Assembly: GCF_030160755.1 (NCBI RefSeq)
Contig: NZ_BSOY01000002.1
Span: 1 to 64,000 of the forward strand
Length of the DNA: 64,000 nt
Source of the DNA: Brevundimonas denitrificans
GTDB lineage: Bacteria > Pseudomonadota > Alphaproteobacteria > Caulobacterales > Caulobacteraceae
Reading direction: 5' to 3'
Shown here: one piece after another, positions 26,779 to 62,294 of the stretch
Numbering within the stretch: the first letter of the stretch is position 1
Layout: the number at the start of each line of letters is the position of its first letter
Translations under genes and position numbers: made by a program
The notes under the pieces: generated by a model
Databases searched by the model: none
Told to the model about the DNA's origin: nothing
The model's input: the letters and a program-made list of their open reading frames with translations, nothing else

Positions 26779-27076
26779 ATGTTCGGCGCTGCCGAAGAGC
26801 CGACCCTCTGACCCCCTCCGCCGGTAGGGGGCTCCGCCGCTCCTGCATCAACAGAGCGGATGGGCATACGAGAGCGCGGTCCCTCTTTGCGCCTCGCCGC
26901 GGCCGCCCGATTCCCATGTTGCGCGATTGTTCATACAGGGAAGGGCAGCGCACAACTTTTCCGCCGCCGACCCTACCTTTCTCCTGCAAAATCATCTAGG
27001 TGGCGCGGCGGGGAAGGAGACGGCGAACGATCAAGCCCGTCTCCGGGATTTCATTATCAAGAGTTGCAGCGCCAAC

Positions 27077-28063
27077 ATGGTCGAACAAACAGGCAAAAGC
27101 GTCCGCGTGGCGCTCATCGGTTGTGGCCGCTGGGGGCGCAACCTCGCGCGCGTCCTGGCGCGGCTCGGCGCCCTGGAGGTGATCGTGGATCCGGCCGTCG
27201 TGGCGCTCACGCCGTATGCCGAAGAGCTGGGCGTGCGTATAGTCAGTGATCTGGACGCCGCCTTCGCCGACGGGATCGACGCGGTGGTCATCGCCGCCCC
27301 GGCGGTGGATCACGCCTGGCTGGCGCGCCGGGCGCTGGAGTCCGGCAAGCCGGTGTTTGTCGAAAAGCCCCTGGCGCTTGAGCTGGAGGACGCGGAGGCG
27401 CTGGCTGTGCTGGCGAAGGAGCGCGGCCTGACGCTTATGGTCGGCCACCTGCTGCAGTATCACCCCGCCTTTGTGACGCTGAAGAAACTCGTCGCCGCCG
27501 GTGAGATCGGCGAACTGCGGCATATTACATCTCACCGGTTGAACCCGGGCGCGATCCGTACCGAGGAAAATGCGCTCTGGAGCATGGCGCCGCACGACTT
27601 CTCCATGATTCTCGGCCTGGCCGGTGCGGAACCGGATCAGGTTTCAGCCTTGCCCGTCCGGGTGGTGAACCCGTCGATTCCCGACCAGTATTTCGTTCAG
27701 CTTCGCTTTACCGGCGGCCTTACCGCCCAGGTCAACGTCTCCTGGATCTCGCCCTACAAGGAGCACAAGCTGACGGTGCTCGGAACCAAGGGCGCCCTGG
27801 TCTTCGAGGACACAGCGTCCGAGCGCGACCGCAAGCTTGTCATCTATCGGGACTATGTGGACGTGACGGGAGCCGGACCGCGCTTCGTGAAGAGCGAGGG
27901 CGAGCCGGTCGCCTGGCCTGCTGAAGAGCCGCTGGAGGCTGAATTGAGAACCTTCCTGGCGGCTGCGCGGGGCGAGGAAGAGACCCGTACGGGACCGGAG
28001 GAAGCCATTCCCGTCCTGCGACTGCTCCGTCGCGCCGACGCGGCGGCGATGGGCGGCTCATGA
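27077..28063 (+). CDS. Gfo/Idh/MocA-family sugar dehydrogenase (WbpB/WlbA-like)
   Basis: 328 residues. The NAD-binding motif LIGCGRWGRN is at about 13-22, EKPLALE carries the family's catalytic-type Lys (about 96), and the C-terminal half is the usual alpha/beta dimer domain. Next to a WbpE-like aminotransferase and a WbpA-like 6-dehydrogenase, the likely reaction is 3-oxidation of UDP-GlcNAc-uronic acid. ATG at 27077 is the first good start; the 300 bases upstream, up to the ligase remnant, hold the promoter side of this operon and no gene I can support. Overlaps the next gene by ATGA. Confidence 0.85.
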   Translation: MVEQTGKSVRVALIGCGRWGRNLARVLARLGALEVIVDPAVVALTPYAEELGVRIVSDLDAAFADGIDAVVIAAPAVDHAWLARRALESGKPVFVEKPLALELEDAEALAVLAKERGLTLMVGHLLQYHPAFVTLKKLVAAGEIGELRHITSHRLNPGAIRTEENALWSMAPHDFSMILGLAGAEPDQVSALPVRVVNPSIPDQYFVQLRFTGGLTAQVNVSWISPYKEHKLTVLGTKGALVFEDTASERDRKLVIYRDYVDVTGAGPRFVKSEGEPVAWPAEEPLEAELRTFLAAARGEEETRTGPEEAIPVLRLLRRADAAAMGGS

Positions 28064-28953
28064 GTCATCAACTAAGCGAATTTCAGGGCCTCGCCGGACT
28101 GGACGTGCTGCGCGACGGGCCGTTTGTGCTCACCGGCAAGCTGTCCACGCTCCTTGACGGACTGTGCGTGCCTCTGCGCTCGGCGAAATATCTGGACGAG
28201 GTCAACGCCAACCCGCGGGTCGCCGCCGTCATCACCACGCGCGATATCGCCGCAGGCCTCGACCCCCGGTTTGCGGTGGCGATCGCCGAGAAGCCGGATA
28301 CGGCTCACGCCGAACTGCACGCCCGCCTCGCGGAGAAGCGCGAGGCCGAACTGCGCGCCCGTCCCAACCGGATCGACCCCAGCGCCGTCATCGACCCTTC
28401 CGCCCGGATCGCTGACCATGGCGTGGAGATCGGCGCACGGGTGCGCATCGGCTCTCACGTGTCGATCGCCCCCGGCGTCGTCGTGGAAGATGATTGCGTG
28501 CTCCATCCCGGGGTCAGTCTGGGTGTTCCCGGCTTCAACACCGGAATCATTGGCGGGCGCCAGCGCATCATCCCCCAGCTCGGCGGTGTCCGGCTGCGGC
28601 CGTACGTCGAGTTGCTGGCGAACGTCTGCGTGGCCCGCGCGTTGTTTGGCGGCGAGACCACCCTTGGCGAGGAGACGGTGGTCGACAACCTGGTCTATAT
28701 CGCCCACGACGTTCAGATCGGACGTCGGGTCCAGATCTGCGCCCTGGTCAATATTCTCGGCCGCGTCGAGATTGGGGACGAGGCCTATATCGGACCATCC
28801 TCGGTCATCATCAACGGGGCCCGCATCGGCGAAAAGGCCAAGGTCAGCATCGGCGCCGTCGTGACGCGCGATGTGCCCGCCGGCGCCACGGTCAGCGGCA
28901 ATTTCGCCATCCCCCATGATCGGTTCCTGACCCATCTCCGCTCTGTTCGCTAA
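28060..28953 (+). CDS. Left-handed beta-helix acyltransferase (WbpD/LpxD-like)
   Basis: 297 residues. Residues 1-100 form a mixed domain resembling the LpxD N-terminus; from about 105 hexapeptide repeats begin (IDPSAVIDPSARIADHGVEI) and run to about 285, with a catalytic-type His in VYIAHDVQIG. Such enzymes N-acylate UDP-amino sugars using an acyl or acetyl donor. Here it sits between the 3-dehydrogenase and the aminotransferase that would make a 3-amino group, so acetylation of that amine is the likely job. WbpD itself is only about 190 residues, so the extra N-terminal domain is unusual. Confidence 0.78.
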   Translation: MSHQLSEFQGLAGLDVLRDGPFVLTGKLSTLLDGLCVPLRSAKYLDEVNANPRVAAVITTRDIAAGLDPRFAVAIAEKPDTAHAELHARLAEKREAELRARPNRIDPSAVIDPSARIADHGVEIGARVRIGSHVSIAPGVVVEDDCVLHPGVSLGVPGFNTGIIGGRQRIIPQLGGVRLRPYVELLANVCVARALFGGETTLGEETVVDNLVYIAHDVQIGRRVQICALVNILGRVEIGDEAYIGPSSVIINGARIGEKAKVSIGAVVTRDVPAGATVSGNFAIPHDRFLTHLRSVR

Positions 28954-28965
28954 TCCGGAATTTCC

Positions 28966-30096
28966 ATGCAGTTCATCGACCTGAAGACCCAGTACGCCCT
29001 GCTCAAGCCAGAGATTGACGCGCGCATCCAGGGCGTCCTCGACGCGCAGGCGTTCATCCAGGGCCCGGAGGTCCGGGAGCTTGAGACCGCGCTGGGTGCG
29101 TTCAGCGGCGCGAAACGGGTTGTGACCTGCGCCAATGGCACAGACGCCCTGCAGCTCGCCCTGATGGCGTTGGGCATCGGCGCCGGCGACGCGGTCTTTG
29201 TTCCCAGCTTCACCTATACGGCGACGGCCGAGGTGATCCTGCTCCTGGGCGCCCGCCCTGTGTTCGTGGATTCGGACCCCGACACCTTCAACATCGACTT
29301 CGACAGCGCCGAAGCGGCCATCGAGCGGACGCAGAAGGAAGGCGTGCTGCGCCCCGCCGCCCTGATGACCGTCGATCTGTTCGGACTGCCCGTGGACTAC
29401 GACCGCGCCCGGGACCTGGCCAACAGGCACGGCCTCGCCCTTATCTCCGACGCCGCGCAAGGGTTCGGCGCCAGCTTCAAGGGCCGTCGCGTCGGCTCGG
29501 GCATCGCCGACATCACCACCACGAGCTTTTTCCCCGCCAAGCCCCTGGGTTGCTACGGCGATGGCGGCGCGGTCTTCACCGACGATGACCGGATCGCCGA
29601 CGTGATCCGCTCCATCTGCCTGCACGGCAAGGGCGCTGAGAAGTACGACGTGGTCCGCGTCGGGGTGAACAGCCGCCTCGACACGCTTCAGGCCGCCATT
29701 CTGCTGCCCAAGCTGGCGGCGTTCGGCGATGAACTCGAAAAGCGGCACGCGGTCGCACAGCGTTACACCGAGCGCCTGAAGGGTCACGTCGCCACGCCGC
29801 AGGCCGCCGAGGGCGACGATCGCTTCGCCTGGGCCCAGTACACCGTCAAGGTCGCCGACCGTGATGGTGTCCAGGCTCGCCTCAAGGCCGCGGGCGTCCC
29901 GTCCAACGTCTATTACCCCCGCCCGATGCACCTCCAGTCCGCCTACCTGGAATACGGCGCCGGAGAGGGCTCCCTGCCGGTCGCCGAGCAGTTGTCCCAG
30001 TTGGTCCTCAGCCTGCCCATGCACCCCTATCTGTCAGACGAGGAGGTCGATCAGGTGTCGTCCGCCCTCATCTCCGCCATAACCCCCAACGTTTGA
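28966..30096 (+). CDS. DegT/DnrJ/EryC1/StrS sugar aminotransferase (WbpE-like)
   Basis: 376 residues, usual length. PLP contacts: CANGTDALQLAL (about 55-66), SDAAQGFGASFKG (Asp162), and TSFFPAKPLGCYGDGG with Schiff-base Lys192. PRPMHLQSAY near the end is typical. It transfers an amino group from glutamate to a keto sugar nucleotide. Between a 3-dehydrogenase and a UDP-sugar 6-dehydrogenase the likely product is UDP-2-acetamido-3-amino-2,3-dideoxy-glucuronate. Twelve bases separate it from the acyltransferase. Confidence 0.9.
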   Translation: MQFIDLKTQYALLKPEIDARIQGVLDAQAFIQGPEVRELETALGAFSGAKRVVTCANGTDALQLALMALGIGAGDAVFVPSFTYTATAEVILLLGARPVFVDSDPDTFNIDFDSAEAAIERTQKEGVLRPAALMTVDLFGLPVDYDRARDLANRHGLALISDAAQGFGASFKGRRVGSGIADITTTSFFPAKPLGCYGDGGAVFTDDDRIADVIRSICLHGKGAEKYDVVRVGVNSRLDTLQAAILLPKLAAFGDELEKRHAVAQRYTERLKGHVATPQAAEGDDRFAWAQYTVKVADRDGVQARLKAAGVPSNVYYPRPMHLQSAYLEYGAGEGSLPVAEQLSQLVLSLPMHPYLSDEEVDQVSSALISAITPNV

Positions 30097-30105
30097 GCAT
30101 CAGCC

Positions 30106-31446
30106 GTGAACGAACATTCGACGTCGCAGTCCCCCGCACCGGCCGTAGCCAAATTCATGGACCTGGTGGAGCAGCGCAAGGCGCGCATCGGCATCCTCGG
30201 CCTGGGCTATGTGGGCATTCCCCTGGCGCTGCGCTTTCATGAGGTCGGCTATCCCGTCCTCGGCTTCGATATCGACGACCAGCGCATTGCGGACCTGAAC
30301 GCCGGCGAGAGTCCGATCAAGCACATCCCCTCCAAAGACATTGCTGCGATGGCGGCAGGCGGCTTTGAGGCGACGTCCGACTTCTCGCGCATCGGCGAGG
30401 TCGAGGCCATCATCATCTGTGTCCCGACCCCGCTGAGCCGGCACCGCGAGCCGGACCTCTCCTACATTGTCGAGACCATGAAGGCGATCACGCCGCATCT
30501 GCGCGCGGGCCAGATGCTGTCGCTGGAAAGCACGACCTGGCCGGGCACCACCGAGGAAGTCCTGCGTCCCTTCATCGATGGACGAGGGTTCACGATCGGC
30601 GACGATTTCTTCCTCGTCTATTCGCCCGAGCGGGAAGACCCCGGCAACCCGAATTTCAGCACCCATTCCATCCCGAAAGTCGTCGGCGGCTCCACGGCCG
30701 CCTGCCGACAAGTCGGAGAACGCCTCTACAGCGTGGCTGTGGACAAGATTGTGCCGGTCTCCTCGACCCAGGCGGCCGAACTGACCAAGCTGCTCGAGAA
30801 CATCCACCGCGCAGTCAACATCGGCCTGGTCAACGAGATGAAGATCATCGCTGACAAGATGGATATCGACATCTTCGAGGTGATCGACGCCGCCAAGACC
30901 AAGCCGTTCGGCTTCACCGCCTACTACCCGGGGCCGGGCCTCGGCGGGCACTGCATCCCGATCGACCCCTTCTACCTGACCTGGAAGGCCAAGGAATACG
31001 GCGTGTCGACCCACTTCATCGAGTTGGCCGGCGAGATCAACCGCGACATGCCTCAATGGGTGGTGGCGAAGATCGCCGACGCGCTGAATGATCGTCAGAA
31101 ATCGCTGAAGGGGAGCCGCATCCTCGCTCTGGGGATCGCCTACAAGCGGGACGTCGATGATATGCGGGAATCGCCTTCCGTGCTGGTCATGGAGCTGCTG
31201 CGCGACCGCGGAGCGATTGTGGAATATTCTGATCCCAACGTGCCGATCTTTCCCAGGATGCGTGAGCACAAATTTGAACTCTCCTCCATAGATCCCACGC
31301 CGGAAGTGCTGGAATCCTATGATGCCGCCATACTTCTAACGGACCACTCGGACTTCGACTACGCCACAATTCTGAAGCATTCGAACCTTGTGGTCGATAC
31401 GCGCGGAAAATACCGAGAAGAACATCCAAACGTCATCAAAGCGTGA
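30106..31446 (+). CDS. wbpA: UDP-N-acetylglucosamine 6-dehydrogenase (WbpA/TviB-like)
   Basis: 446 residues, three-domain nucleotide-sugar dehydrogenase. [13 protein letters not shown] (29-41) binds [27 protein letters not shown] and [17 protein letters not shown] follow; the catalytic Cys283 is in [16 protein letters not shown]. It oxidises C6 of UDP-GlcNAc (or its epimer) to the uronic acid and supplies the substrate for the three upstream enzymes. GTG start nine bases after the aminotransferase stop. Confidence 0.9.
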
Positions 31447-31465: not shown

Positions 31466-32185
31466 ATGGGCGCTTTTCCCGAGTACGCGAAATTCATTTC
31501 CGAGATCGCGGAAGCGGGATACCGGTTCGCTACGATGTCTGCTGGTGCCCCCTCTCCGGAGACGACTATCTATTTGCGACATGATATCGATTTCGACACG
31601 GAGTACGCGCTCCGCATGGCCAAGATTGAAGCGCAAATGGGAGTGGCGGCAACATACTACTTCATGTTGTCCAGCGACTCCTATAACCCCCTGTCGTCCT
31701 ACAACTCACACAGGATACGTGAAATTGCAGCCTTGGGACACAAGATAAGCCTACACTTCGATCCAGTGATCTATGACGACATGGAGCAGGGGTTGTTAAG
31801 AGAGGTTGCCGTCTTCCGGGACGCGTTTGGTGTACCGGTTGATATCATTAGTATACATCGACCGAACGAGGCCATCTTGTCTCATGAGGGCGAGATAGCG
31901 GGTATCGCTCACACCTATCAAAGTCGATATTCAAAAGATGTCTTCTATTGCTCCGACTCCCAAGGAAGATGGCGATTTGGCAGTCCGCTTGACAGCCAAG
32001 CGTTCGCGAACAGAACCACGATTCACCTCCTGACCCATCCGATCTGGTGGGTTCGAGGAGAGGCGGAATCCCAGGCGCAGCTCGACGGATATGTGAGTGA
32101 TCGGATTGAAAGATTCCTCACTCACATCGAGGCCAACTGCAGATCATTCAGCAAGGCCCTCTCCGTTCACAACGTGGCCTATTGA
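31466..32185 (+). CDS. Polysaccharide-deacetylase-like (NodB-type) protein
   Basis: 239 residues. YLRHDIDFDTEYAL has the Asp pair of the NodB metal site; GHKISLHFDPVIYDD supplies a His and an Asp, and IHRPNEAILSHEG the distal part. It lacks a signal peptide, so it should act in the cytoplasm on a sugar nucleotide or lipid-linked glycan, as seen for WbmS-type proteins in O-antigen loci. Its exact substrate is unknown. GGAGG lies 13 bases before the ATG. AT content begins to rise inside this gene. Confidence 0.72.
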   Translation: MGAFPEYAKFISEIAEAGYRFATMSAGAPSPETTIYLRHDIDFDTEYALRMAKIEAQMGVAATYYFMLSSDSYNPLSSYNSHRIREIAALGHKISLHFDPVIYDDMEQGLLREVAVFRDAFGVPVDIISIHRPNEAILSHEGEIAGIAHTYQSRYSKDVFYCSDSQGRWRFGSPLDSQAFANRTTIHLLTHPIWWVRGEAESQAQLDGYVSDRIERFLTHIEANCRSFSKALSVHNVAY

Positions 32186-32336
32186 TGAGGCGGTATTTTC
32201 CGTCGACGAACGATGTGGTTGATCCAGGGTGTAAAACTCTGTCCTCTAGACTTGACCATAATTCGGCCCAGGCGCCGTTCGGGATTGAGATAGCGCGGCA
32301 CCCGACCGGTTCCGGGTGCCAACGAGGATGCCAGAA

Positions 32337-33578
32337 ATGAAGATCGACCAATATTATGGAAATGGACGATCAAACGGCGGTTTTTCACTATACGGTATCT
32401 TGTCTGTTGTCTTCGTATTTGTTCTTCTAATTCAGCTCTGTCGCTCCATGGCTATCGACACGTTCGGCCTGACTGGCACACGTCTTGATCTGGCCGGATT
32501 TGCAATTTGCCATGCCATCGGGGCCGCGCTGATCGCGCGTGCCGTTATAAGCAGGAGGTTAATGGCCGATGTACTCCTGCTTTGCGTGCTTTTGATATCC
32601 TATATCGCAACTGTCGTCGCGAACACGGCGATCGATACTTCCCTTCTAGCCATGTTTCTCTCCCGATACGGAATTCTGAACTGGCTGCTTCTTGGCGTCG
32701 GGACAGCCGCTGCCGCAAGTTACATTCACTTGCCCATAGCTTCTCCTCAGGCGCGACTACAAAAACGCTTGTTCTTATCAATCACCGTGATCGTCGGGAT
32801 AATCCTAACGCTTTTTTCCGCGACCTACTTAAGTTATCCGGTATTTAGCCTGTCTTACCAATCTGTCGCTAATAATCTTATTCTGATATTGCTGATATTG
32901 ATGATATTTACCCAAGTAATATGGGGAGGTAAAGTCCCCATTCCCGTCGTGGTTGGGCTGCTGGTCATAGGCACTTTGGCTGTCACGGCGGTTGCCCGGA
33001 TGCAGTCGACATCAATTGTCGGGTTCTGGATGGTCGGTCTGCTCGTTTATTTTTGGGCGGCTTTGTCGAAATTGACATTAAAATACAAGATAATTGCCTT
33101 TGCATCTTTGTCTTTTGTTGCCATTATTTATCTTAAAAGCGACCTGTTCACGCAGACCCTCGAAAGTACCCGCTTTGCTGTTCTTCTTGGCGGTGGTGGA
33201 CTTTCGTCGCTCGACGGACGGCTGGAGTTGATGAGCGACTTCGGCAGACAATTTGCCGTGGGGCCGGTCTTCGGTCACTTTTCCGCTGAGGTGATGGCCG
33301 GTTCAGGGATAGGAAATTACCCGCACAGCCTGCTGTCGTTCCTCACGCACACGGGGTTGGTGGGCACGGCCCTTTTGTGCGTCGTGCTGTTCCTGTCCTA
33401 CTCGCGCAGGTTTCCGGTGCGCCGTCTGAGCCAGCCCGACGTTCAGCAGTTGATGTTCATGAGCGCCATCTTGGCCCTCGGAACAGCGTACACATTCATG
33501 ACCTGGTCGGTTTTCTGGTTCATGTTGGGATTCATGTGCAAGATGCCCATACCCAAGGCGGCGGGAGAGGCCAGATGA
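32337..33578 (+). CDS. wzy: O-antigen polymerase-like membrane protein (Wzy)
   Basis: About 413 residues with some 10-11 hydrophobic segments and a large polar loop before helix 10 (LGGGGLSSLDGRLELMSDF), a common Wzy layout. The following GSGIGNYPHSLLSFLTHTGLVG with its His is the usual loop motif of this superfamily. Wzy joins repeat units in the periplasm. I chose ATG 32337, which has GAGG nine bases upstream; in-frame GTG 32316 and ATG 32328 are alternatives. AT-rich codons mark it as different from neighbours, typical of exchanged O-antigen genes. Stop overlaps the hisH-like start. Confidence 0.78.
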   Translation: MKIDQYYGNGRSNGGFSLYGILSVVFVFVLLIQLCRSMAIDTFGLTGTRLDLAGFAICHAIGAALIARAVISRRLMADVLLLCVLLISYIATVVANTAIDTSLLAMFLSRYGILNWLLLGVGTAAAASYIHLPIASPQARLQKRLFLSITVIVGIILTLFSATYLSYPVFSLSYQSVANNLILILLILMIFTQVIWGGKVPIPVVVGLLVIGTLAVTAVARMQSTSIVGFWMVGLLVYFWAALSKLTLKYKIIAFASLSFVAIIYLKSDLFTQTLESTRFAVLLGGGGLSSLDGRLELMSDFGRQFAVGPVFGHFSAEVMAGSGIGNYPHSLLSFLTHTGLVGTALLCVVLFLSYSRRFPVRRLSQPDVQQLMFMSAILALGTAYTFMTWSVFWFMLGFMCKMPIPKAAGEAR

Positions 33579-34195
33579 TCGTCATCGTCGACTACGGGAT
33601 CGGGAATCTCGGCTCCATCAAGAACATGTTGCGCAAGATCGGCGCGCCGGCGACGATCAGTTCAGACCCCGACGCGATAAGGTCTGCGGCCAAGCTGATC
33701 CTGCCGGGCGTCGGCGCCTTCGACACAGGCGCGCGGCAACTCCGGGAGTCAGGGCTTGTCGATCTCTTACAGGAGCGCGCACTGGAGGATCGCGTACCAG
33801 TCTTGGGCATTTGCCTAGGCGCCCAGTTAATGACGAGATCCAGCGAAGAGGGAGTGGAATCGGGCCTTGGCTGGTTCGAGGCGGAAACGTGCAGGATGAC
33901 GTTCAATGATATTCCCGGAAAATGGCCACTGCCCAATATGGGCTGGCGGGAGGTGCAGTGCCGGGAAGGCTATCCTCTGATGCAGGGCTACGAAGCCTCG
34001 CCGCGATTCTATTTCGTTCACTCCTATTACATGAAGCCTGACAAGCCCGAGTTGGCCTCGGTGACATCGACCTATGGCTTCGACTTCGCCTGCGGGTTGA
34101 GCCGGGATAACCTTCACTGCGTTCAGTTTCATCCCGAGAAAAGCCATAGCTTCGGGATGCGCTTCCTCAGGAATTTCTCGGAGCTTCCTGCCTAA
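33575..34195 (+). CDS. HisH-like glutamine amidotransferase for sugar amidation
   Basis: 206 residues, class-I glutaminase. Cys80 in LGICLGAQLM is the nucleophile and QFHPEKSH gives the His and Glu. It resembles histidine-pathway HisH, but no other his genes are here; it overlaps a HisF-like gene and a WbpG-type synthetase follows. In Pseudomonas B-band O-antigen loci the same trio puts an amidine on a sugar. It would release ammonia from glutamine for that step. ATG overlaps the wzy stop by four bases. Confidence 0.88.
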   Translation: MIVIVDYGIGNLGSIKNMLRKIGAPATISSDPDAIRSAAKLILPGVGAFDTGARQLRESGLVDLLQERALEDRVPVLGICLGAQLMTRSSEEGVESGLGWFEAETCRMTFNDIPGKWPLPNMGWREVQCREGYPLMQGYEASPRFYFVHSYYMKPDKPELASVTSTYGFDFACGLSRDNLHCVQFHPEKSHSFGMRFLRNFSELPA

Positions 34196-34947
34196 TGCGC
34201 TCCCGCATCATACCGGTTCTGCTTCTTAAGAACGCTGGCCTCTACAAGACCCGCAAGTTCCGCGACGACGTGTACATCGGCGATCCAATCAACGCGGTCC
34301 GCATCTTCAATGAGAAGGAAGTCGATGAACTGGCCTTCCTCAGCATCGAGGCGGCGCGGTCTGGTGGCGATCCCGACCTCGAGACTCTCAAGAACATCGC
34401 AGGCGAGTGTTTCATGCCCCTTGCTTATGGCGGCGGGATCAAGTCGAGCGAGATGGTTCGGGAAATCCTGGCGATCGGGATCGAGAAGATCATCATCAAC
34501 TCGGCGGGCTGGACCGACCCTGCCCTCATTCCCCACCTCACCGAACATTTCGGCAGTTCCACCATTGTCGGCTCCATCGACGTCAAGCGTAGCTGGACCG
34601 GCCGGGAACAGGTCATGATCCATGGCGGGCAGGAAAAGGTCGCGAGTTCGCCTGAAGACTGGGCGCGTGAGCTTGAACGCCGTGGAGTCGGCGAAATCAT
34701 GATCAACGCCATCGACCGCGACGGGGAAATGATCGGGTATGACCTCGATCTCGTGCGCCGTATAGCCGCCGCCGTATCCGTTCCCGTGATCGCCGCGGGA
34801 GGGGCGTCCTCCATAGACGACCTGAAGTCTGCGGTCATCGACGCCGGCGCATCCGCCGCCGCCGCCGGAGCGCTGTTCGTGTTCCAGGGCAAGCACCGCG
34901 CTGTGCTTATTACCTACCCATCGTCGGCCGAACGTGACGGATTCTGA
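34195..34947 (+). CDS. HisF-like synthase subunit for sugar amidation, altered active site
   Basis: 250-residue TIM barrel. True HisF begins with a CLDVKDG motif whose Asp is catalytic; here the same place reads IIPVLLLKNAGLYKT, so that Asp is gone. The second acid is kept in VGSIDVKRSW. YVGDPIN-type (YIGDPINAVRIFNEKEVDEL) and LAYGGGI are typical of HisF partners of WbpG/PseA enzymes. It probably channels ammonia from the HisH-like glutaminase to the synthetase and no longer makes imidazole. Start overlaps the hisH-like stop (TAATG). Confidence 0.85.
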   Translation: MRSRIIPVLLLKNAGLYKTRKFRDDVYIGDPINAVRIFNEKEVDELAFLSIEAARSGGDPDLETLKNIAGECFMPLAYGGGIKSSEMVREILAIGIEKIIINSAGWTDPALIPHLTEHFGSSTIVGSIDVKRSWTGREQVMIHGGQEKVASSPEDWARELERRGVGEIMINAIDRDGEMIGYDLDLVRRIAAAVSVPVIAAGGASSIDDLKSAVIDAGASAAAAGALFVFQGKHRAVLITYPSSAERDGF

Positions 34948-34956
34948 CGGGTACCC

Positions 34957-36258
34957 ATGACCTTCGTCCGAAATCTGCTGTCGGCCTTCAACCTTGGGCA
35001 TGCCTCATTTGTCGGCAGTTCGGCATTGGTTCAACTCCTTCCGCTCCTGAGCGCTCCGATCATAGCAAGGCTCTATACGCCAGCGGAATTCGGCATTTAT
35101 GCCGTGTTTTTTGCGCTCTCGTCCATCCTGGCGGGAATCTCGGCCTTAGCGCTGACGAACGCTGCCCTGCTGGAAGTCGAGGAAGTAGATGCTGCCCACG
35201 CCACGCTGCTCGCGATGACTGTCACCATCATCTTCTGTGCGGTGCTCATCGGCTTGGTATTTGGCGTTCCGCACGTGGCGATGGCGGCGATGTTCGGCGA
35301 GGCGGTCCTCCCCTACCTGCCTTGGCTGCCGCTGACCGCGCTGCTCTCGGGCATCTTCACCTGTCTCTACACTTGGGCGATCCGGTCCAAGCAGTTCCAC
35401 CTACTGGCGCGAAACAGGATTGTGCTGGGGGTATCGACCGCGGGACTCCAGATCGGCATTGGCGTCATGAATCCCGGCGCCATTGGTTTCATCCTCGCCA
35501 ACCTCTGCGGATACGGACTCGCCGTGATGCTGCTCGTGGCTCCATTCCTTGGGGACCTGAAGCGGTTAAGACCGGAATTTGGCCTCCGCTCAGGTTTGTA
35601 CCGCTTCAAAAAGCACCGGACCCTGCCGCTCTGGACCGTGCCGGCCAATCTGGTGAATAGCGTCTGCGGATTTCTGCCCGAACTGATCATCGGGCGGCTG
35701 TTCGGGGTCGCGCAACTCGGTCAGTTTTCACTGGCCAGTCGAATGGTGAACTTCCCCCTCACCTTCATCGCCACCAGCGCTCAGGACATATTCCGTCAAC
35801 AAGCGGCTCAAGAGTTCAACGAACACGGTCATTGCCGTCAAACATTCAATCGGTTCTTCCTTTTGATGGGGGTAGCGGCGGTCGCGTTTCTGGTTCCGAT
35901 CATTCTGATCGTTCCCTATGTGTTTCCGATCATATTTGGCAGCCAATGGAACCAGTCAGGCGCGTTGATACAGGCCATCGGGTTATTGCTGATCGTCAGA
36001 TTTGTTTCTTCGCCGCTGAGCTATGTCTGGATCATCCGCGGCCATCAGAAACTCGATTTCCTTTGGCAGACAGGCCTGATGGCGATCAGTCTGACAACGT
36101 TCCTGGTTCCGCCTTTGCTCAAACCCGGCGTTTCGTTATACGAAGTGCTGTGGGCCTACAGCATTGGCGTCGGGGCGTGGTACGTCTTCTGTCTGCTGGT
36201 GTCTCGCCAATTCGCCTACAGTCAAATCGACGCCTCCCGCGTCACAGCCCCGGGTTGA
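34957..36258 (+). CDS. wzx: Oligosaccharide flippase (Wzx, MOP superfamily)
   Basis: 433 residues and about 12 hydrophobic helices. SSALVQLLPLLSAPIIARLYTPAEFGIYAV-type start (seen at 25-50; key segment PIIARLYTPAEFG) is the mark of polysaccharide flippases, with the second-half motif FGVAQLGQFSLASRMVN. It moves undecaprenyl-linked repeat units to the periplasm for the Wzy-like protein two genes upstream. Nine bases after the hisF-like gene. Confidence 0.88.
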   Translation: MTFVRNLLSAFNLGHASFVGSSALVQLLPLLSAPIIARLYTPAEFGIYAVFFALSSILAGISALALTNAALLEVEEVDAAHATLLAMTVTIIFCAVLIGLVFGVPHVAMAAMFGEAVLPYLPWLPLTALLSGIFTCLYTWAIRSKQFHLLARNRIVLGVSTAGLQIGIGVMNPGAIGFILANLCGYGLAVMLLVAPFLGDLKRLRPEFGLRSGLYRFKKHRTLPLWTVPANLVNSVCGFLPELIIGRLFGVAQLGQFSLASRMVNFPLTFIATSAQDIFRQQAAQEFNEHGHCRQTFNRFFLLMGVAAVAFLVPIILIVPYVFPIIFGSQWNQSGALIQAIGLLLIVRFVSSPLSYVWIIRGHQKLDFLWQTGLMAISLTTFLVPPLLKPGVSLYEVLWAYSIGVGAWYVFCLLVSRQFAYSQIDASRVTAPG

Positions 36259-36304
36259 CAGCGCCCCTCGTCGCCTGATTTTCCGAACCGCATGAAGTCA
36301 ATCC

Positions 36305-37480
36305 ATGAGCCATTTCAATAATCCGTTTACGGACATTCTGCACCAGCACCCCTATCGGGAGTGCCACCGATGCCTGATGGACACGTCAGATCCGAAGATC
36401 ACCTTCGACGATGAGGGCGTGTGCAACCATTGCCGGGATTACGACGTCTATATGGCGCGGGCAGGAGATCCCTCCCAGCGACAGGCCAAGCTGGATGCAA
36501 TGGTCGCTCACCTGAAGCGACAGGGCAAAGGCAAACCTTACGACTGCATCATGGGCCTCTCGGGCGGCGTGGACAGCTCTTATCTCGCCTGGCTGGCTGT
36601 CAAGAAGCTGGGTCTTCGGCCACTCGTCGTGCACGTGGACGCCGGCTGGAACTCCGAACTCGCAGTCAACAATATTCAGAACATCGTCCAGCGGCTCGGG
36701 CTCGACCTGCATACGCTTGTGATCGACTGGGAGGAAATCCGGGACCTGCAGCGGGCCTTCTTCCTATCCGGCATCGCGAACCTTGATGTGCCCCAAGACC
36801 ATGCCTACATCGCGTCGCTAATGCAGGAAGCGCGGAAGTACGGTATTCGCGACATCCTGAACGGCGGCAATATGCAGACCGAGTCCATTTTGCCGAGCGC
36901 ATGGGGCTACGACGCGTCGGACCCCGTTTCTATCAAAGGAATACACGCGCGTTTCGGGACCGTGCGGTTGAAGCGCTATCCGATGCAGACGAACTGGGAC
37001 CGTCTAGTCGTGAATCCGTTCATTCGGCGCATGCGCACCCATCGCCCGCTGGAGTACATCGACTACAACAAGGACGCGGCTAAGGAACTGCTGAAGAGTG
37101 AACTGGGCTGGCGCGACTACGGCGGCAAGCACTACGAGTCCATATTCACCAAGTTCTTTCAGGCTCACTATCTTCCGACCAAGTTCGGCTACGATAAGAG
37201 ATTGGCTCACCTGTCGAGCTTGATCGTGTCCGGACAGATGACCAAGCAGGAGGCGCGAGCAGAAATGCAGAACCCCCTGTACGACCCGGTCGAGCTCGAG
37301 GAGGACCGGAGTTATTGGGTCAAGAAGCTTGGCTTGAGCAGGAAGGACTACGACAAGGTGATGGCGGAACGGCCGTCCCTGTACACCGATTTTCCGAATA
37401 GCGAGAGCCTGTACAACCGTATTCGCGCTGTTGCGCGCCTGGTGGCCAAGGCGTACCGAAAAATCAAGCCTCGCTCATGA
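36305..37480 (+). CDS. wbpG: N-acetyl sugar amidotransferase, WbpG family, copy 1
   Basis: 391 residues. An N-terminal zinc site is complete: CHRC (20-23) and CNHC (40-43). The ATP pyrophosphatase P-loop LSGGVDSS is at about 85-92, then HVDAGWNSELAVNNI, NGGNMQTESI and KYRDY-like WRDYGGKHYES. The family activates an acetamido group with ATP and replaces its oxygen with ammonia, giving an acetamidino sugar; ammonia comes from HisH/HisF. It overlaps the next glycosyltransferase gene by ATGA. A 46-base gap separates it from wzx. Confidence 0.88.
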   Translation: MSHFNNPFTDILHQHPYRECHRCLMDTSDPKITFDDEGVCNHCRDYDVYMARAGDPSQRQAKLDAMVAHLKRQGKGKPYDCIMGLSGGVDSSYLAWLAVKKLGLRPLVVHVDAGWNSELAVNNIQNIVQRLGLDLHTLVIDWEEIRDLQRAFFLSGIANLDVPQDHAYIASLMQEARKYGIRDILNGGNMQTESILPSAWGYDASDPVSIKGIHARFGTVRLKRYPMQTNWDRLVVNPFIRRMRTHRPLEYIDYNKDAAKELLKSELGWRDYGGKHYESIFTKFFQAHYLPTKFGYDKRLAHLSSLIVSGQMTKQEARAEMQNPLYDPVELEEDRSYWVKKLGLSRKDYDKVMAERPSLYTDFPNSESLYNRIRAVARLVAKAYRKIKPRS

Positions 37481-38679
37481 CCGGAACCCAGGAGAATGCG
37501 GTCAAGGGACGGCTGAACCTGCATGTTTTCTTGTCGAGCGTCGAGAGCGAGACCCGACTCTTCAAAGAGGCCCGCTACACCTTGGAGCAAGGCATCTTCG
37601 ACCGCGTTGTGGTGGTCGGATTGTGGGCCAAGGACCTGAAGCGCAGCGAGGTAACCAGCTACGGCCTTGAAATCGAACGCCTGACCGTTCTGATCAGACG
37701 GTACGGTGACGCCGAAATTCTGCGTCGACTCCCTATCCTTCGCAAGGTGGTTGCGGCGATAAGCATGCTGCAGTTCTATTCCCTTGCTGTTCGTCGCGCC
37801 CGGCAGCTCAGACCAAGCCATGTGAGCTGCCACAACCTCATGCTGCTTCCCCTTGCCTGGACGGCCGCCCGACTGAGTGGAAGCCGCCTGGTCTACGTGC
37901 CACATGAGTTGGAGGCACGCCGGGCGGGGCTGGGAACCGTGATGCAAAAGCTGCACGGGATGATGGAACGCGCCTTCATTAAGGCCGCCAGCCAAGTCGT
38001 GGTCGTCTGTGAGCCGATCGCGGAATGGTATCGTGACCGATATGGCCTCGCCAATGTCCACGTCGTTCGGAATGTGCCTGAACGGGACGCGCTCGAATTA
38101 AGAAAAGTATCATCTGGCGATTTTCGGCATCGTTTCAATATTTCTGACGACGCGACTGTATTCATCTACCAAGGTCTTTTTGGAAGGGCTCGAGGTACTG
38201 ACCGGCTGTTGGAGATATTCTCCGGACTGGAGCCGGAACTGTGTCATCTCGTTCTGATGGGCTATGGGGAAGGAACGGACCAGTTGGAAGTCGATGAGTT
38301 CGTCAGCCGCCATTCGAATATTCATCATCAACCGGCCGTGCCCCGGGAGTGGATCATCTCTTACACCAGTGGAGCAGATATCGGTCTTATAGTCGTCGAC
38401 AATGCCCCCCTAAGTTATCGGCACTCACTTCCAAACAAGTTTTTCGAATATGTGCATGCCGGCCTGCCAGTACTCGTCAGCGACAACCTCCAACATTTGT
38501 CAGAGATTCTCGAAGCAGGAGGCATCGGGTGGTCGGTTCCCTATGACGAGATCAGGTCCAAGATCCTCGAGCTCACGCGAACACGCCACACTGTTTACCG
38601 GGAGCGGGCCAGAGAGTTCGCCTCGAACGCCGTGTGGGAAGCGGATGCACGGGTATATGAAACCGTCTATCGATCCTGA
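37477..38679 (+). CDS. Glycosyltransferase, GT4-like
   Basis: 400 residues with two Rossmann halves. The N-terminal half has HNLMLLPLAWTAAR and YVPHELEARRAG; the C-terminal donor-binding half has YQGLFGRARGTDRLLE, LMGYGEG and the EX7E-like region LPNKFFEYVHAGLPVL. It lacks membrane helices apart from a hydrophobic N-terminal patch, and would add one sugar of the repeat on the inner membrane. It lies between the two WbpG copies. Donor and acceptor unknown. Confidence 0.85.
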   Translation: MTGTQENAVKGRLNLHVFLSSVESETRLFKEARYTLEQGIFDRVVVVGLWAKDLKRSEVTSYGLEIERLTVLIRRYGDAEILRRLPILRKVVAAISMLQFYSLAVRRARQLRPSHVSCHNLMLLPLAWTAARLSGSRLVYVPHELEARRAGLGTVMQKLHGMMERAFIKAASQVVVVCEPIAEWYRDRYGLANVHVVRNVPERDALELRKVSSGDFRHRFNISDDATVFIYQGLFGRARGTDRLLEIFSGLEPELCHLVLMGYGEGTDQLEVDEFVSRHSNIHHQPAVPREWIISYTSGADIGLIVVDNAPLSYRHSLPNKFFEYVHAGLPVLVSDNLQHLSEILEAGGIGWSVPYDEIRSKILELTRTRHTVYRERAREFASNAVWEADARVYETVYRS

Positions 38680-38747
38680 TGGACGAGAGCGATTAGCGGC
38701 CCGCACTTCGCGGACCGAGGTCAACCAACAGAGTGGAACGGAAGCAG

Positions 38748-39959
38748 ATGGTCCTCGACCAACCGGGTGAACGGGGTGATGTGTACCCGAAGCGGAACCT
38801 CCGCACGTGCGCCCTGACGCTCTATGACGAAACAATTCCCGGCCTTACGTTTGACGAGGAAGGCGTATGCGACCTAGCCCGGAACTCCCTGTGGCGCCTT
38901 GAGAACGAGGTCTTCCGCGGCGACGAGGGACGGCGGCGACTGGAAGTCTGGGCGGACAAGATCAAAGCCACTGGCCGGGGCCGTGACTACGATTGCATTA
39001 TCGGTCTCTCAGGTGGCGTGGACAGCAGCATCGTGGCAGCGCGCGTCATCGAACTGGGCCTGCGCCCTCTCGCCATTCACCTGGACAACGGCTGGAATAC
39101 CGATACAGCGGTCGGCAACATCGAGCGGATCGTGAAGACCCTGAAAATCGACCTGATCACTCACGTTGTGGACTGGGAAGAGATGAGGGACCTGCAGCGC
39201 GCCTACATCAAGGCATCGGTTCTCGATCTCGAATGCGTGAGCGATCACGCTATCAATACCATCATATACCGGACCGCGCACAAGCGTGGAATTAAGTACG
39301 TTATACACGGTGGCAATGTCGCAACCGAGTCCACTATGCCAAATACTTGGGCGTACGACAAAAGAGATGGGAAGAATCTTCTCGCTATACATAATAAATA
39401 CGGAAATGTTCGATTGCGGACCTATCCGTACATGCACCCACACCAGCTGTTTTGGTACCTGTTCATATCTGGTATAAAATCCTTTCCGATACTGAACTAT
39501 ATGTCATACAGTAAGGCGGATGCCATCGAGGAACTAAAAGAGCGGTTTGATTGGCGCCCATATCCGCGAAAACATGGCGAGAACCGGTTCACACGATTTT
39601 ATCAAGAACTATATTTACCACAGAAGTTTTCCATAGATAAACGGATAGCTCATTACTCCGCTTTGATGCTTACCGGGGAAATGCCGCGCGAGACTGCAAA
39701 CGACTTGATGCGTCAGCCGCTCTACACCCCGGAGGACGAACTGGAAGAGCTGGAGTTCGTGGCCAAGAAGCTTGGATTTTCCGTTGAAGAGCTTTCAACC
39801 CTCATGAGGGCGCCCCCACGCAATCATACAGATTTTCCGAATGCCGCAATGCTGTTTGATCACAATCGTTTCTCAGTCCAATTGGCTCGCAAATTGGCGA
39901 AGGGAGAGTTTCGCTGGTCACAGTTGCGGGAACTGAGAGCCAGATACCCTCAGCTATGA
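38748..39959 (+). CDS. N-acetyl sugar amidotransferase, WbpG family, copy 2 with reduced zinc site
   Basis: About 403 residues from ATG 38748; GTG 38733 is also possible. The P-loop GLSGGVDSS (about 86-94), LDNGWNTDTAVGNIERI and HGGNVATEST match copy 1. The N-terminal zinc knuckles are changed: copy 1 has CHRC and CNHC, here they read CALT and CDLA, so the second Cys of each pair is lost while the intervening LTFDEEGVC is kept. It could amidate a second sugar, act with copy 1, or have lost zinc binding. Its stop overlaps the following glycosyltransferase start. The middle part is AT-rich. Confidence 0.85.
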   Translation: MVLDQPGERGDVYPKRNLRTCALTLYDETIPGLTFDEEGVCDLARNSLWRLENEVFRGDEGRRRLEVWADKIKATGRGRDYDCIIGLSGGVDSSIVAARVIELGLRPLAIHLDNGWNTDTAVGNIERIVKTLKIDLITHVVDWEEMRDLQRAYIKASVLDLECVSDHAINTIIYRTAHKRGIKYVIHGGNVATESTMPNTWAYDKRDGKNLLAIHNKYGNVRLRTYPYMHPHQLFWYLFISGIKSFPILNYMSYSKADAIEELKERFDWRPYPRKHGENRFTRFYQELYLPQKFSIDKRIAHYSALMLTGEMPRETANDLMRQPLYTPEDELEELEFVAKKLGFSVEELSTLMRAPPRNHTDFPNAAMLFDHNRFSVQLARKLAKGEFRWSQLRELRARYPQL

Positions 39960-41113
39960 AAACGCACGTTCATCTATACTTTGCAGCGTGGCGTGGCGAA
40001 TCCCGCGCATGGCGCGCCGGAACCACTGCGATCCAGGCCGGGCACGCCGACAACGTTCTCTATGTGGGCCACAAGGCAGTCGGGCATCCCGACAGGGAAG
40101 AGATTGCACCCAATCAGACCATTTTGAGAATCGGCACGGAGCCGCCGCGGCCTGGAAGCCCGCGCTTGCTGCGTGCCCTGGCGCTGCCGAGGTGGTGGCG
40201 GGCATGCCAACGCGATCTGGCCCCCAAGGACGTTTCTCTGGTCGTCGCCCACAGCCTCGCATCTCTCCCCATCGCCGTGTTGCTTTCGCGACATTGGCGG
40301 ACTCCACTTCTGTATGACGCTCATGAACTTGAGACTCAACGAGAAGGTTGGAGTCGACCCATTCGTTTAATAGCTCAAGTAATGGAATGGCTTTTCATTC
40401 GATTCGCAGATCACACTGTTGTCGTCAATGACTCGATTAAAGACTGGTATAAAAGTCGATATCCTTTTGCTCGAATTACGACATTAAGGAATACGCCATC
40501 GACAGACCGCAGGCTCGCCCCTCCAGGACAGATGCGACGTGATCTGGGCTTGGGTGAAGACGATCTAATATTCCTCTACTTGGGACGATTCGGGCCAGGT
40601 CGAGGGATCGACCTCATGATAGAAGCATTCAAAAAACTCCCTACAAATAAGCACGCTGTCTTTCTTGGCGACGGTCCGTGGGAAGAATGGATGAAAGAAG
40701 AAGCCGGGAAACACGCCAACATCCACGTCTTGAAGCCCGTGTCGCCCGAAATTGTGGCGTCATATTCGTCTTCCGCTGACGTTGGTGTGTCAATCGCCAA
40801 CGGGAAGTCCCTGAGCTACCATTACGGCTTGGGAAACAAGATTTTCGAGTATTCTTTAGCCGGCCTGGCGCTAATCGTCTCCGATATCCCCGAACAGCGG
40901 ATTTATGTCGAGAATCACGCGAGAGGCTGGACTATTCCTGCATGCGCTCTCGAACTTGAAACGCTGGTCAGAAGTCTTACTCGTGAGTCGATCATGGCAC
41001 GGCCTGAAAGGAAGCGATTTCCTCCCAGTTGGGAAACTGAGCGCCAGGTGTTGCTTTCGATCTTTCTTGAGTTGTCTAACAGCCCCCCATCAAGGGTTGA
41101 CCAGACGCTTTAG
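39956..41113 (+). CDS. Glycosyltransferase, GT4-like
   Basis: 385 residues. AHSLASLPIAVLL and LLYDAHELETQREGW are in the acceptor half; LYLGRFGPGRGIDLMIEAF, LGDGPWEEWM and GLGNKIFEYSLAGLALIVSD in the donor half. It resembles the gene at 37477 in outline, so the two may be old relatives. It belongs to the operon by an ATGA overlap with WbpG copy 2. Its last 24 bases overlap, tail to tail, the end of the LpxD-like gene on the other strand. AT content is above the window average. Confidence 0.85.
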   Translation: MKTHVHLYFAAWRGESRAWRAGTTAIQAGHADNVLYVGHKAVGHPDREEIAPNQTILRIGTEPPRPGSPRLLRALALPRWWRACQRDLAPKDVSLVVAHSLASLPIAVLLSRHWRTPLLYDAHELETQREGWSRPIRLIAQVMEWLFIRFADHTVVVNDSIKDWYKSRYPFARITTLRNTPSTDRRLAPPGQMRRDLGLGEDDLIFLYLGRFGPGRGIDLMIEAFKKLPTNKHAVFLGDGPWEEWMKEEAGKHANIHVLKPVSPEIVASYSSSADVGVSIANGKSLSYHYGLGNKIFEYSLAGLALIVSDIPEQRIYVENHARGWTIPACALELETLVRSLTRESIMARPERKRFPPSWETERQVLLSIFLELSNSPPSRVDQTL

Positions 41114-43733: not shown

Positions 43734-44076
43734 TCTATGTAGGCATCCGCGACACGTTTCATTAAACAGGACTTGGAGAAGGCGGATAGCCCATCCGGTC
43801 GTCCTCATACCAGCTATATCTGATATGTGGACGCCGCCATTCGTCATGGGTGACGCGAATCTGGGACGGCGGGGTGGAGAAGAACAAATTCTGCCGGGCC
43901 AAGGGTGTCCCCAGGGTAGAAAAAATGTCCAAGATGGAGGCGACTGCTTTGTCGCCTGACGCTTGGCCTATTGTTTCAACAGCCTGTTAGAGACAAGAGG
44001 CGTCCGGCCAGCCGGGCGGACTGGGTATGGAGGGACGCCGCGCTATCGTGCGCCGGCGCAGGCAAAAGGAGTAGTC
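43734..44076. other. Divergent intergenic stretch, 343 bases
   Basis: Lies between the divergent glycosyltransferase and hydroxyacyl-CoA-dehydrogenase genes. Both adjoining frames extend into it but without conserved residues. It must carry both promoters; I see no clear operator or hairpin. CAGGCAAAAGGAG at 44060-44072 is the ribosome site of the right-hand gene. Confidence 0.5.
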
Positions 44077-44886
44077 GTGACCGAAACCTTGGGAATCGCG
44101 GGAAGCGGCGTGATCGCCACTGGTCTGGCGGCATGCGCAGCCCGTACCGGTGGGCATGTGCTGTGGGCCCGGTCCGAAGACTCTGCCGATCGGGCTCGCG
44201 TGGTGATCGCCAAGGTGTGCGAACGCTTGGGCGATAGCCATGTCGCGGCGAATGTCCAGGTCACCACCGACCTTGCCGAGATGTCACATGCGTCGTTCCT
44301 TGTGGAGGCCATCGCCGAAGATCTTGCACTGAAAAGCGAAATTCTTGGAAGGCTTGGAAAACTGGCGAGAACCGACGCCGTGATCACCTCGACGACCTCT
44401 TCGCTGTGTATCGAGTCTCTTGCCGCGGCATCGGGGCGGCCCGAATGCTTCTCCGGCTTGCACGTCTTTAACCCCGTGCCCAAAATGCGCTTGGTCGAGG
44501 TCGCTTTCCCAGCCAAGGCCACTACCGACACCCGTCGACGCGTTCACGAGCTTTGTATTGCGTTAGACAAGGAGGCTGTCGAGACGCCCGCCGTTCCGGG
44601 ATTCGTCGTAAACGGACTGCTATTTCCTTTTCTCTTTAACGCGGTGGAGTATTTGGACCGCACCGGCTTGGCTCCGGAGACGATCGACGCCTGCATGCAG
44701 TTGGGAGCAGGGCATCCCATGGGTCCGATCACCCTGCTGGATTACATAGGACTGGATGTCTGTGTCGCCATCGGCGATGCTTTGGGGCTGGAAGTGCCGC
44801 ACCGCCTCAGATCCTTAGTGGTTGAGGGCGCGACGGGAAAGAAGGCGCGCCGGGGTCTCTATCCTGCCGCTCACTATTCGACCTGA
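44077..44886 (+). CDS. 3-hydroxyacyl-CoA-dehydrogenase-family oxidoreductase
   Basis: 269 residues from GTG 44077, preceded by AAAGGAG at four to five bases. Rossmann start IAGSGVIATGLAA, then ITSTTSSLCIESLA, FSGLHVFNPVPKMRLVEV (His of the catalytic pair) and PGFVVNGLLFPFLFNAVEYL, GHPMGPITLLDYIGLDV follow 3-hydroxybutyryl-CoA dehydrogenases all along. The usual reaction is NAD-dependent oxidation of a 3-hydroxyacyl-CoA. In a glycan locus it may make an acyl donor for an amino sugar, for example a 3-hydroxybutyryl group; that is inference. It is followed by a dead IS element. Confidence 0.83.
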   Translation: MTETLGIAGSGVIATGLAACAARTGGHVLWARSEDSADRARVVIAKVCERLGDSHVAANVQVTTDLAEMSHASFLVEAIAEDLALKSEILGRLGKLARTDAVITSTTSSLCIESLAAASGRPECFSGLHVFNPVPKMRLVEVAFPAKATTDTRRRVHELCIALDKEAVETPAVPGFVVNGLLFPFLFNAVEYLDRTGLAPETIDACMQLGAGHPMGPITLLDYIGLDVCVAIGDALGLEVPHRLRSLVVEGATGKKARRGLYPAAHYST

Positions 44887-45897: not shown

Positions 45898-46809
45898 CTA
45901 GGCGCCCAGCAGCTCTCGTGTCCGGCGCGCGATAGCCGGGGCGTCCAGTTCGTAAACCTTGCGCAGGTAGCGCTGATCACCGACGACGGTGGGATAGATG
46001 TCGTCCAGACCAATCCGGAGAAAGCGTTTGGGCGCTACGCCGGCGCTCATGCAGGCTTCCGCGATCGCGCCGCCGAGCCCGCCGATGATGGTGTGCTCCT
46101 CCACCACCACGACCGCCCTCGCCGCCCCGGCGGCCGCGACCAGTGCGGGATCGAGCGGCTTCACGGTCGCAACCGCATGAACCGCCGCCGAAATTCCATT
46201 TTCGGCCAGCAGGTCTGCGGCCCGTACCGCTTCCTCGACAATCCCGCCCGTCGCGATGAGGCATACATCATCGCCATCGCGAACCTTGCGCGACTGGCCG
46301 AGGGTCACCGATGTCTCGGGCAGTCCCGCCGCGCTCTTGTCCAGCCGCAGATAGGTCGGACCGCGGCGGGCCGACACCTGCCGGGTCAGCTCCGCCGCCT
46401 CCCAGGGATCGCTGGGAGCCACAACGATCATATTGGGCAGCGCCCGCATGATCGCCAGATCCTCGGTTGCGAAGTGAGACATGCCCAGCTGACCATAGGA
46501 AAATCCGCCGCCGACCGACACGATCTTCACGTCCGCGTCGTGGTAGCAGACGTCGTTGCGGATCTGCTCGAGGCACCGCAGGGTCGGGAAATTGCCGATG
46601 GAGTAGGTGTAGACCTGGAAGCCTTCCAGGGCCATGCCGCACGCGATCGCGGTCATGTTCTGTTCGGCCACGCCCGCGTTGATGTAACGGTTGGGGAAGC
46701 GCGCGGCGAAGTCCTGCAGAACCCCGAAGCCCAGATCGCCCGTCACCAGAACGATACGCTCGTCAACGGCCGCCAGCTCGGTCAGGGCCCGGATGAAAGC
46801 GTCACGCAT
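45898..46809 (-). CDS. Transketolase, C-terminal subunit (split type)
   Basis: 303 residues: the pyrimidine-binding and C-terminal domains. VTGDLGFGVLQDFAARFPNRYINAGVAEQNMTAIACG-type start (key part NAGVAEQNM, with the Glu that activates thiamine diphosphate), FATEDLAIMRALPNM, and VVVEEHTIIGGLGGAIAE are typical. With the overlapping upstream gene it makes one enzyme moving two-carbon keto units between sugars. Split transketolases of this sort in glycan loci build unusual sugars or supply precursors. Starts eight bases inside the N-terminal subunit gene. Confidence 0.9.
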   Translation of the reverse strand: MRDAFIRALTELAAVDERIVLVTGDLGFGVLQDFAARFPNRYINAGVAEQNMTAIACGMALEGFQVYTYSIGNFPTLRCLEQIRNDVCYHDADVKIVSVGGGFSYGQLGMSHFATEDLAIMRALPNMIVVAPSDPWEAAELTRQVSARRGPTYLRLDKSAAGLPETSVTLGQSRKVRDGDDVCLIATGGIVEEAVRAADLLAENGISAAVHAVATVKPLDPALVAAAGAARAVVVVEEHTIIGGLGGAIAEACMSAGVAPKRFLRIGLDDIYPTVVGDQRYLRKVYELDAPAIARRTRELLGA

Positions 46810-62290: not shown

Positions 62291-62294
62291 CCGA

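Follow-up and report, generated by a model that had tools for sequence, protein, structure and literature searches.

We analysed the first 64,000 nucleotides of contig C2 (C2:1-64000, hereafter the window) of a 3.01-Mb genome of Brevundimonas denitrificans, focusing on the genes of a predicted amidine-sugar system that sit within a Wzx/Wzy-type polysaccharide cluster of this Caulobacteraceae genome. They encode a HisH-type glutaminase, a HisF-like protein and two N-acetyl sugar amidotransferases (NASATs, also called WbuX or WbpG), here named WbpG1 and WbpG2. An earlier note on this DNA had proposed an amidine-sugar system with two WbpG paralogues, separated by a glycosyltransferase (GT) gene, for one HisH/HisF pair. 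All five of these genes are open at the positions it gave, and such a system is supported by the family assignments and signature residues, by the order of the genes and by counts across the genome. The core genes are:

33575-34195, plus strand: HisH-type glutaminase (TIGR01855, 196.4 bits, cut-off 105.4; query from 33602)
34195-34947, plus strand: AglZ/HisF2 ammonia-conducting partner (NF038364, 341.7 bits, cut-off 310)
34957-36258, plus strand: Wzx-like flippase, between HisF and WbpG1, unnamed in the earlier note (PF13440, 6.2e-23)
36305-37480, plus strand: WbpG1, zinc-type NASAT (Cys 20/23/40/43; PP-loop SGGVDS; TIGR03573, 303.6 bits)
37477-38679, plus strand: GTa, GT4-type glycosyltransferase (PF13439; 4-bp overlap with WbpG1)
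38733-39959, plus strand: WbpG2, zinc-less NASAT (C26/T29/C46/A49; PP-loop SGGVDS; TIGR03573, 249 bits)
39956-41113, plus strand: GTb, GT4-type glycosyltransferase (4-bp overlap with WbpG2; GTa paralogue, 30% identity)

The full plus-strand order is WbpB-like, acyltransferase, WbpE-like, nucleotide-sugar dehydrogenase, a protein of 239 amino acids (aa), Wzy-like, HisH, HisF, Wzx, WbpG1, GTa, WbpG2 and GTb, with 4-bp overlaps at wzy/hisH, wbpG1/GTa and wbpG2/GTb. The G+C content is 53-59% at ~30-44 kb, compared with 63-72% in the remaining window blocks, a pattern common for imported surface-polysaccharide genes.

The HisH protein retains the nucleophile (GICLG) and the HPE motif in an alignment with 4gud. 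The alignment of the window HisF with HisF-LUCA (4evz) spans most of the protein, and the barrel is retained. A leucine replaces the aspartate of strand 1, which we take to be the histidine-cyclase residue (IIPVLLLK versus IIPCLDVK), and the Arg, Glu, Lys and Glu that presumably form the ammonia gate of HisF are kept. This is how an ammonia donor that no longer makes imidazole should look. Because the genome carries a separate HisF/HisA/HisH group on contig C39, the window pair can be regarded as a dedicated set; the C39 HisF scores 187.2 bits with NF038364, and the window HisF is the only one in the genome above the AglZ/HisF2 cut-off.

Both WbpG1 and WbpG2 exceed the curated cut-off of the TIGR03573 WbuX model (203.2 bits) and are its only matches in the genome. 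They share ~40% identity and fall in separate clades, which rules out a recent tandem duplication within the window. The tetracysteine motif (CxxC...CxxC) is complete in WbpG1, and in WbpG2 its second and fourth cysteines are gone (C/T/C/A). In the 2.33 Å structure of LpNASAT from Legionella pneumophila (8WEX), four cysteines at the pocket edge hold a zinc; the motif is termed characteristic of the NASAT family (PMC10607449; the sources cited here were covered in part, and statements drawn from them refer to those parts). WbpG2 retains two of these four cysteines. Since it lacks the motif, we classed it as a zinc-less variant, outside canonical membership. The two WbpGs, which the earlier note had taken as equivalents, differ in the family's zinc site, and each is paired with its own GT. 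The PP-loop is common to LpNASAT and both window enzymes, being of the SGGKDS type in the former and of the SGGVDS type in the latter. Structure models of WbpG1 and WbpG2 (mean pLDDT 93.7 and 91.8) both have 8WEX as their top PDB match (Foldseek E 3.0e-14 and 3.8e-13, respectively), although the N-terminal shape kept in the WbpG2 model is no independent proof, because its alignment held zinc-type relatives.

We then compared the zinc motif across a collection of NASATs drawn from class-wide and relatives searches, WbpG2-seeded searches, a scan of named genomes and four plasmid loci. Only frames with the PP-loop SGGxDS were retained, so the presence of this loop in every zinc-less enzyme is not evidence. 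The collection held 172 distinct NASATs: 71 in clade I (x = V, I, L, T, C or M; mostly SGGVDS) and 101 in clade II (mostly SGGKDS). The motif was readable in 168, the other four being too short or without an N-terminus. All four cysteines were present in 58 of the 69 clade I sequences and in 98 of the 99 from clade II; the 12 broken motifs among 168 are no population frequency, because matches of the class-wide search below the cut-off were mostly left out and the sample was partly sought with WbpG2. The fourth cysteine was lost in all 12 and the second in 11, followed by the third (six) and the first (none). At least two cysteines were missing in 11 of the 12; the remaining enzyme (L213) lacks the fourth only and might still bind metal. 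The H.D.GW motif was present in all 11 zinc-less clade I enzymes and in 54 of the 58 zinc-type ones. In a first comparison set of 40 zinc-type and seven zinc-less clade I sequences, 59 columns were conserved at ≥90% in the zinc-type enzymes, and the three enzymes of the window lineage (group A below) all deviated at just four of them: the second and fourth cysteines, one proline and one serine.

The zinc-less enzymes do not form a single lineage. In a tree of 69 clade I sequences (four cysteine columns removed, LG+G4, midpoint root), they fell into three groups, each with support 100: group A (the window, Mesorhizobium sp. Z1-4 and genome G063), group B (six sequences) and group C (a Limimaricola plasmid and genome G686). 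Group B is sister, with support 100, to five zinc-type enzymes from five of its six genomes, G230 being the exception, and the zinc-type/zinc-less pair of this lineage does look like a duplication. Group A joins B and these zinc-type partners at support 92, and the node uniting A, B and C reaches 67. As zinc-type sequences are nested among the zinc-less ones, there would have been three losses in clade I if the site was never regained. With one further loss in clade II (L231), zinc-less enzymes occur in about four lineages, the exact number of losses leaning partly on weak nodes. Within B, the cysteines decay in a graded manner, from CCCY through CSCY or CGCY to CGSY. The clade II case is an SGGKDS-type NASAT with CSSW in place of the motif (L231:9780-11195, G230:C31), whose NeuB-type locus includes HisF and HisH; a zinc-less clade I NASAT occurs in that genome too.

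Carrying two NASATs in one locus is uncommon, yet it recurs. Two clade I NASATs occur in eight of 61 clade I loci, including those of Bordetella trematum LMG 13506 and an Opitutia metagenome-assembled genome (MAG), and the class-wide search found close NASAT pairs in further genomes. Six of the eight loci combine one zinc-type with one zinc-less enzyme. A ninth double locus (L096, genome G457) has its second NASAT split over two frames, the readable piece carrying four cysteines; this NASAT was removed by the length filter, and mixed loci would number six of nine if it were included. A ratio of two clade I NASATs to one HisF2 was found in the window genome, G063, G826, G344, G436, G833, Mesorhizobium Z1-4, B. 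trematum and the Opitutia MAG, and G845 has two NASATs and no HisF above the HisF2 cut-off. That a zinc-less NASAT always needs a zinc-type partner is ruled out: five of the 11 zinc-less clade I enzymes have no partner in the fetched locus (L024, L166, L211, L213 and L228). L213 lies at a contig end, a zinc-type NASAT is present elsewhere in the genomes of L211 (G833) and L213 (G845), and a HisF lies close to the partnerless enzyme in L024, L166 and L228. Furthermore, a zinc-less enzyme beside HisH/HisF is the sole clade I NASAT in G686, in G230 and on the Limimaricola plasmid, where the plasmid alone was searched. Fisher tests of zinc state against the presence of a partner, with cell counts set by hand, gave p = 0.001 and 0.0002; we give these values no weight, because the sequences are related and the sample was partly seeded with WbpG2.

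Each window NASAT is inherited together with its GT. In each of the three group A loci, GTb comes next after WbpG2, and the GTb proteins resemble one another most (45-50% identity, compared with ~30% to GTa). The WbpG1-GTa pair recurs in Mesorhizobium and also in Pseudidiomarina aestuarii (L041), which has the order HisH-HisF-Wzx-WbpG1-GTa, a single NASAT in its genome and no WbpG2-GTb; the window arrangement thus resembles a basic one-NASAT cassette to which a second NASAT-GT module was added. In one related locus (L029:13487-16145), two adjacent GTa-like genes are 97% identical, reflecting either recent tandem duplication or an artefact of the assembly.

The genes upstream of the amidine set are:

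26927-28063, plus strand: WbpB-like Gfo/Idh/MocA oxidoreductase (NF040723, 125 bits, below the cut-off of 450; PDB 3c1a, 9.7e-29)
28060-28953, plus strand: hexapeptide acyltransferase in the WbpD position, LpxD-like, 297 aa (weak match to PDB 3mqg, 6.5e-7)
28966-30096, plus strand: WbpE-like 3-aminotransferase (PDB 4qgr, 2.5e-123; WbpE 3nyu, 1.2e-105)
30106-31446, plus strand: nucleotide-sugar 6-dehydrogenase in the WbpA position (TIGR03026, 417 bits; Cap5O 3ojl, 6.9e-64)
31466-32185, plus strand: 239-aa protein, polysaccharide-deacetylase-like by eye (no Pfam or NCBIfam match)
32316-33578, plus strand: Wzy-like membrane protein, so named for its position and hydrophobic character (no family match; 4-bp overlap with hisH)

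The top NCBIfam model for the WbpB-like protein is UDP-GlcNAc 3-dehydrogenase, with a score under the model's cut-off; the gene, whose true start is likely near 27077, probably encodes a UDP-GlcNAc(A) 3-dehydrogenase. The structure matched weakly by the acyltransferase, 3mqg, is one we take to be of the WlbB type. The upstream WbpB/D/E/A-like set proposed in the earlier note thus stands for E and A, which have clear matches, while B and D are distant ones. No WbpI-type 2-epimerase was found within the window, and the sole Epimerase_2 match of the genome lies at contig position 64171. The 239-aa protein has a homologue (L228:11406-12209, 169 bits) in a cluster with a zinc-less NASAT. A 3-hydroxyacyl-CoA dehydrogenase-like gene (43963-44886) lies near the LpxD-like acyltransferase. 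Elsewhere in the polysaccharide region, two adjacent minus-strand genes (45898-47665) encode, by eye, transketolase-like N- and C-terminal halves, and a further minus-strand group (60487-63979: PseC-like aminotransferase, NeuD/PglD-type acetyltransferase, one unassigned protein and a GT4 gene) resembles a bacillosamine-type set. Past the window end, at C2:64123-67393 (L209:624-3894), are genes for a 669-aa protein whose C-terminal part is a WecB-type 2-epimerase and for an FnlA-like dehydratase/epimerase (TIGR04130, 565 bits, below the cut-off of 730), so that a second, predicted L-FucNAc-like sugar pathway adjoins the window; a WcaI-like GT and then a weak WzxE-like match follow.

The cluster resembles several known systems. 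The polysaccharide cluster of Pseudomonas aeruginosa O5 contains WbpA/B/D/E-type genes, the WbpI 2-epimerase and GT4 transferases, with a single WbpG followed by WbpH, WbpI and WbpJ. Its WbpG/HisH2/HisF2 set (ManNAc3NAmA) is like the window in placing HisH, HisF2 and a NASAT in a polysaccharide cluster; unlike O5, the window has a second, zinc-less NASAT with its own GT and no WbpI-type 2-epimerase. In O5, one residue of the repeat is amidinated, at C3 (PMC10607449, PMC5701251). The NASAT and HisF-like families (TIGR03573, TIGR03572) are also common to the window and WbuX/WbuY/WbuZ of Escherichia coli O145 (L-FucNAm), which belongs to another sugar pathway; the window HisF scores 263.5 bits, under the WbuZ cut-off of 299.7, yet lies above the AglZ/HisF2 cut-off. 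Cluster B of Sphingomonas sp. LM7 is similar in having HisH, HisF2, WbuX, an MviM-type dehydrogenase and an aminotransferase, and insertions in its HisH, HisF2 and WbuX were among colony-morphology mutants; the table for this strain gives one NASAT, but names only genes hit by insertions (PMC11340318). The B. trematum and Opitutia loci match the window in having two clade I NASATs and one HisF2; unlike WbpG2, all four of their NASATs carry the four cysteines.

Taken together, we propose that the cluster directs both the synthesis of a 2,3-di-N-acylated uronic acid and its amidination. HisH would release ammonia from glutamine and HisF2 would conduct it to a NASAT, which would activate the acetamido oxygen with ATP at the PP-loop, so that nitrogen replaces oxygen to give an acetamidine. 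Both NASATs would draw on the single HisH/HisF2 pair, WbpG2 representing a zinc-free branch that retains the ATP site and the conserved core. Because each NASAT is tied to its own GT4 (WbpG1 to GTa, WbpG2 to GTb), each most likely amidinates a different N-acetyl group. We assign a probability of roughly 55% to two NASAT-GT modules sharing one ammonia donor and amidinating two different N-acetyl groups of the repeat. The targets could lie on two uronic-acid residues or at the two positions C2 and C3; there is precedent for both positions, as the amidine is at C2 in P. rubra and Vibrio vulnificus YJ016 and at C3 in P. aeruginosa O5 (PMC3210612, PMC5701251). The zinc site lies next to the pocket (PMC10607449), so its absence could be a sign of an altered acceptor.

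The earlier note's prediction of one or two amidine groups fits this gene content, but the positively charged glycan that it expected is not supported in terms of net charge. With a single amidine, a 2,3-di-N-acylated uronic acid carries one positive and one negative charge, making it a zwitterion that is neutral overall; a net positive charge would require a second amidine on the same residue or masking of the carboxyl. A bolder version, in which zinc-free NASATs are a functional class with changed regiospecificity and a single di-N-acetylated uronic acid receives an amidine at C3 from WbpG1 and at C2 from WbpG2, with one HisH/HisF2 feeding both steps, is in our view distinctly improbable; if true, the resulting bis-acetamidino uronic acid would have a net positive charge.

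Several observations weigh against two separately amidinated groups. The zinc-less enzyme of G833 lies ~770 kb from the HisF2 locus. The 4-bp NASAT/GT overlaps occur only in the window, the corresponding genes in L028, L029 and L041 being adjacent without them. The case is built on sequences and structure models, and the GT acceptors are putative. As the cluster acyltransferase is LpxD-like, the C3 N-acyl group may be other than acetyl; in Plesiomonas shigelloides O51, 3-hydroxybutyryl is found on 2,3-diamino-glucuronic acid, with an amidino-fucose beside it (PMC3210612). Finally, two NASATs need not equal two amidines: three V. vulnificus NASATs, of which two have consecutive accessions, are named in the legend of a published alignment (PMC10607449), and the repeat of V. 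vulnificus YJ016 holds one amidine, although this strain and locus are unmatched to those NASATs (PMC3210612).

Three other explanations deserve consideration. WbpG1 and WbpG2 could form one heteromeric amidotransferase, with WbpG1 catalytic and the zinc-less WbpG2 acting as a specificity or docking subunit. The pairing of exactly one zinc-type and one zinc-less enzyme in six of eight double loci, the single HisF2 for both and the sister relationship between group B and its zinc-type partners would suit such an arrangement. It is nonetheless fairly unlikely: in G686, in G230 and on the Limimaricola plasmid a zinc-less enzyme accompanies HisH/HisF with no second clade I NASAT, WbpG2 retains the PP-loop and core, and the vast majority of LpNASAT dimer-interface residues are unconserved in the family (PMC10607449). 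WbpG2 might instead be a redundant copy on its way to being lost, WbpG1 alone mattering and the missing cysteines being the first decay. Stepwise cysteine loss in group B points in this direction, and the split second NASAT of L096 indicates that second copies can decay. However, the WbpG2 frame is open and its core retained, H.D.GW is intact in every zinc-less clade I enzyme, identity remains at 66% to the Mesorhizobium and 57% to the G063 homologue, the GTb pairing is maintained and zinc-less enzymes serve as sole clade I NASAT elsewhere, making decay very unlikely.

An improbable but specific alternative is that WbpG2 acts on another sugar pool in place of the uronic acid, for example converting to FucNAm the L-FucNAc that the FnlA-like and 2-epimerase genes at contig 64123-67393 would supply. 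The presence of these two genes downstream speaks for it, and L-FucNAm is a known NASAT product (WbuX of E. coli O145; PMC10607449). Yet neither G063 nor Mesorhizobium Z1-4, both with a window-type WbpG2, has an FnlA match (E up to 1e-60). On this basis we rejected L-FucNAc as a substrate shared across the lineage of window-type WbpG2 enzymes; in the window genome itself it is a possible substrate of WbpG2.

A literature search returned no account, among the matches listed and with subscription journals mostly uncovered, of zinc-less NASATs or of a single HisH/HisF shared by two NASATs. The covered part of PMC10607449 leaves the role of the tetracysteine site unstated, and natural zinc-less NASATs that keep the core, often beside a zinc-type partner, offer a comparison for the role of zinc in the fold, in HisF docking or in acceptor choice. 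The locus also poses a testable question, namely how one ammonia donor would serve two acceptor enzymes. If both NASATs act, the bacterium would carry a surface glycan with two amidines and an altered charge pattern, perhaps affecting recognition by phages or antibodies.

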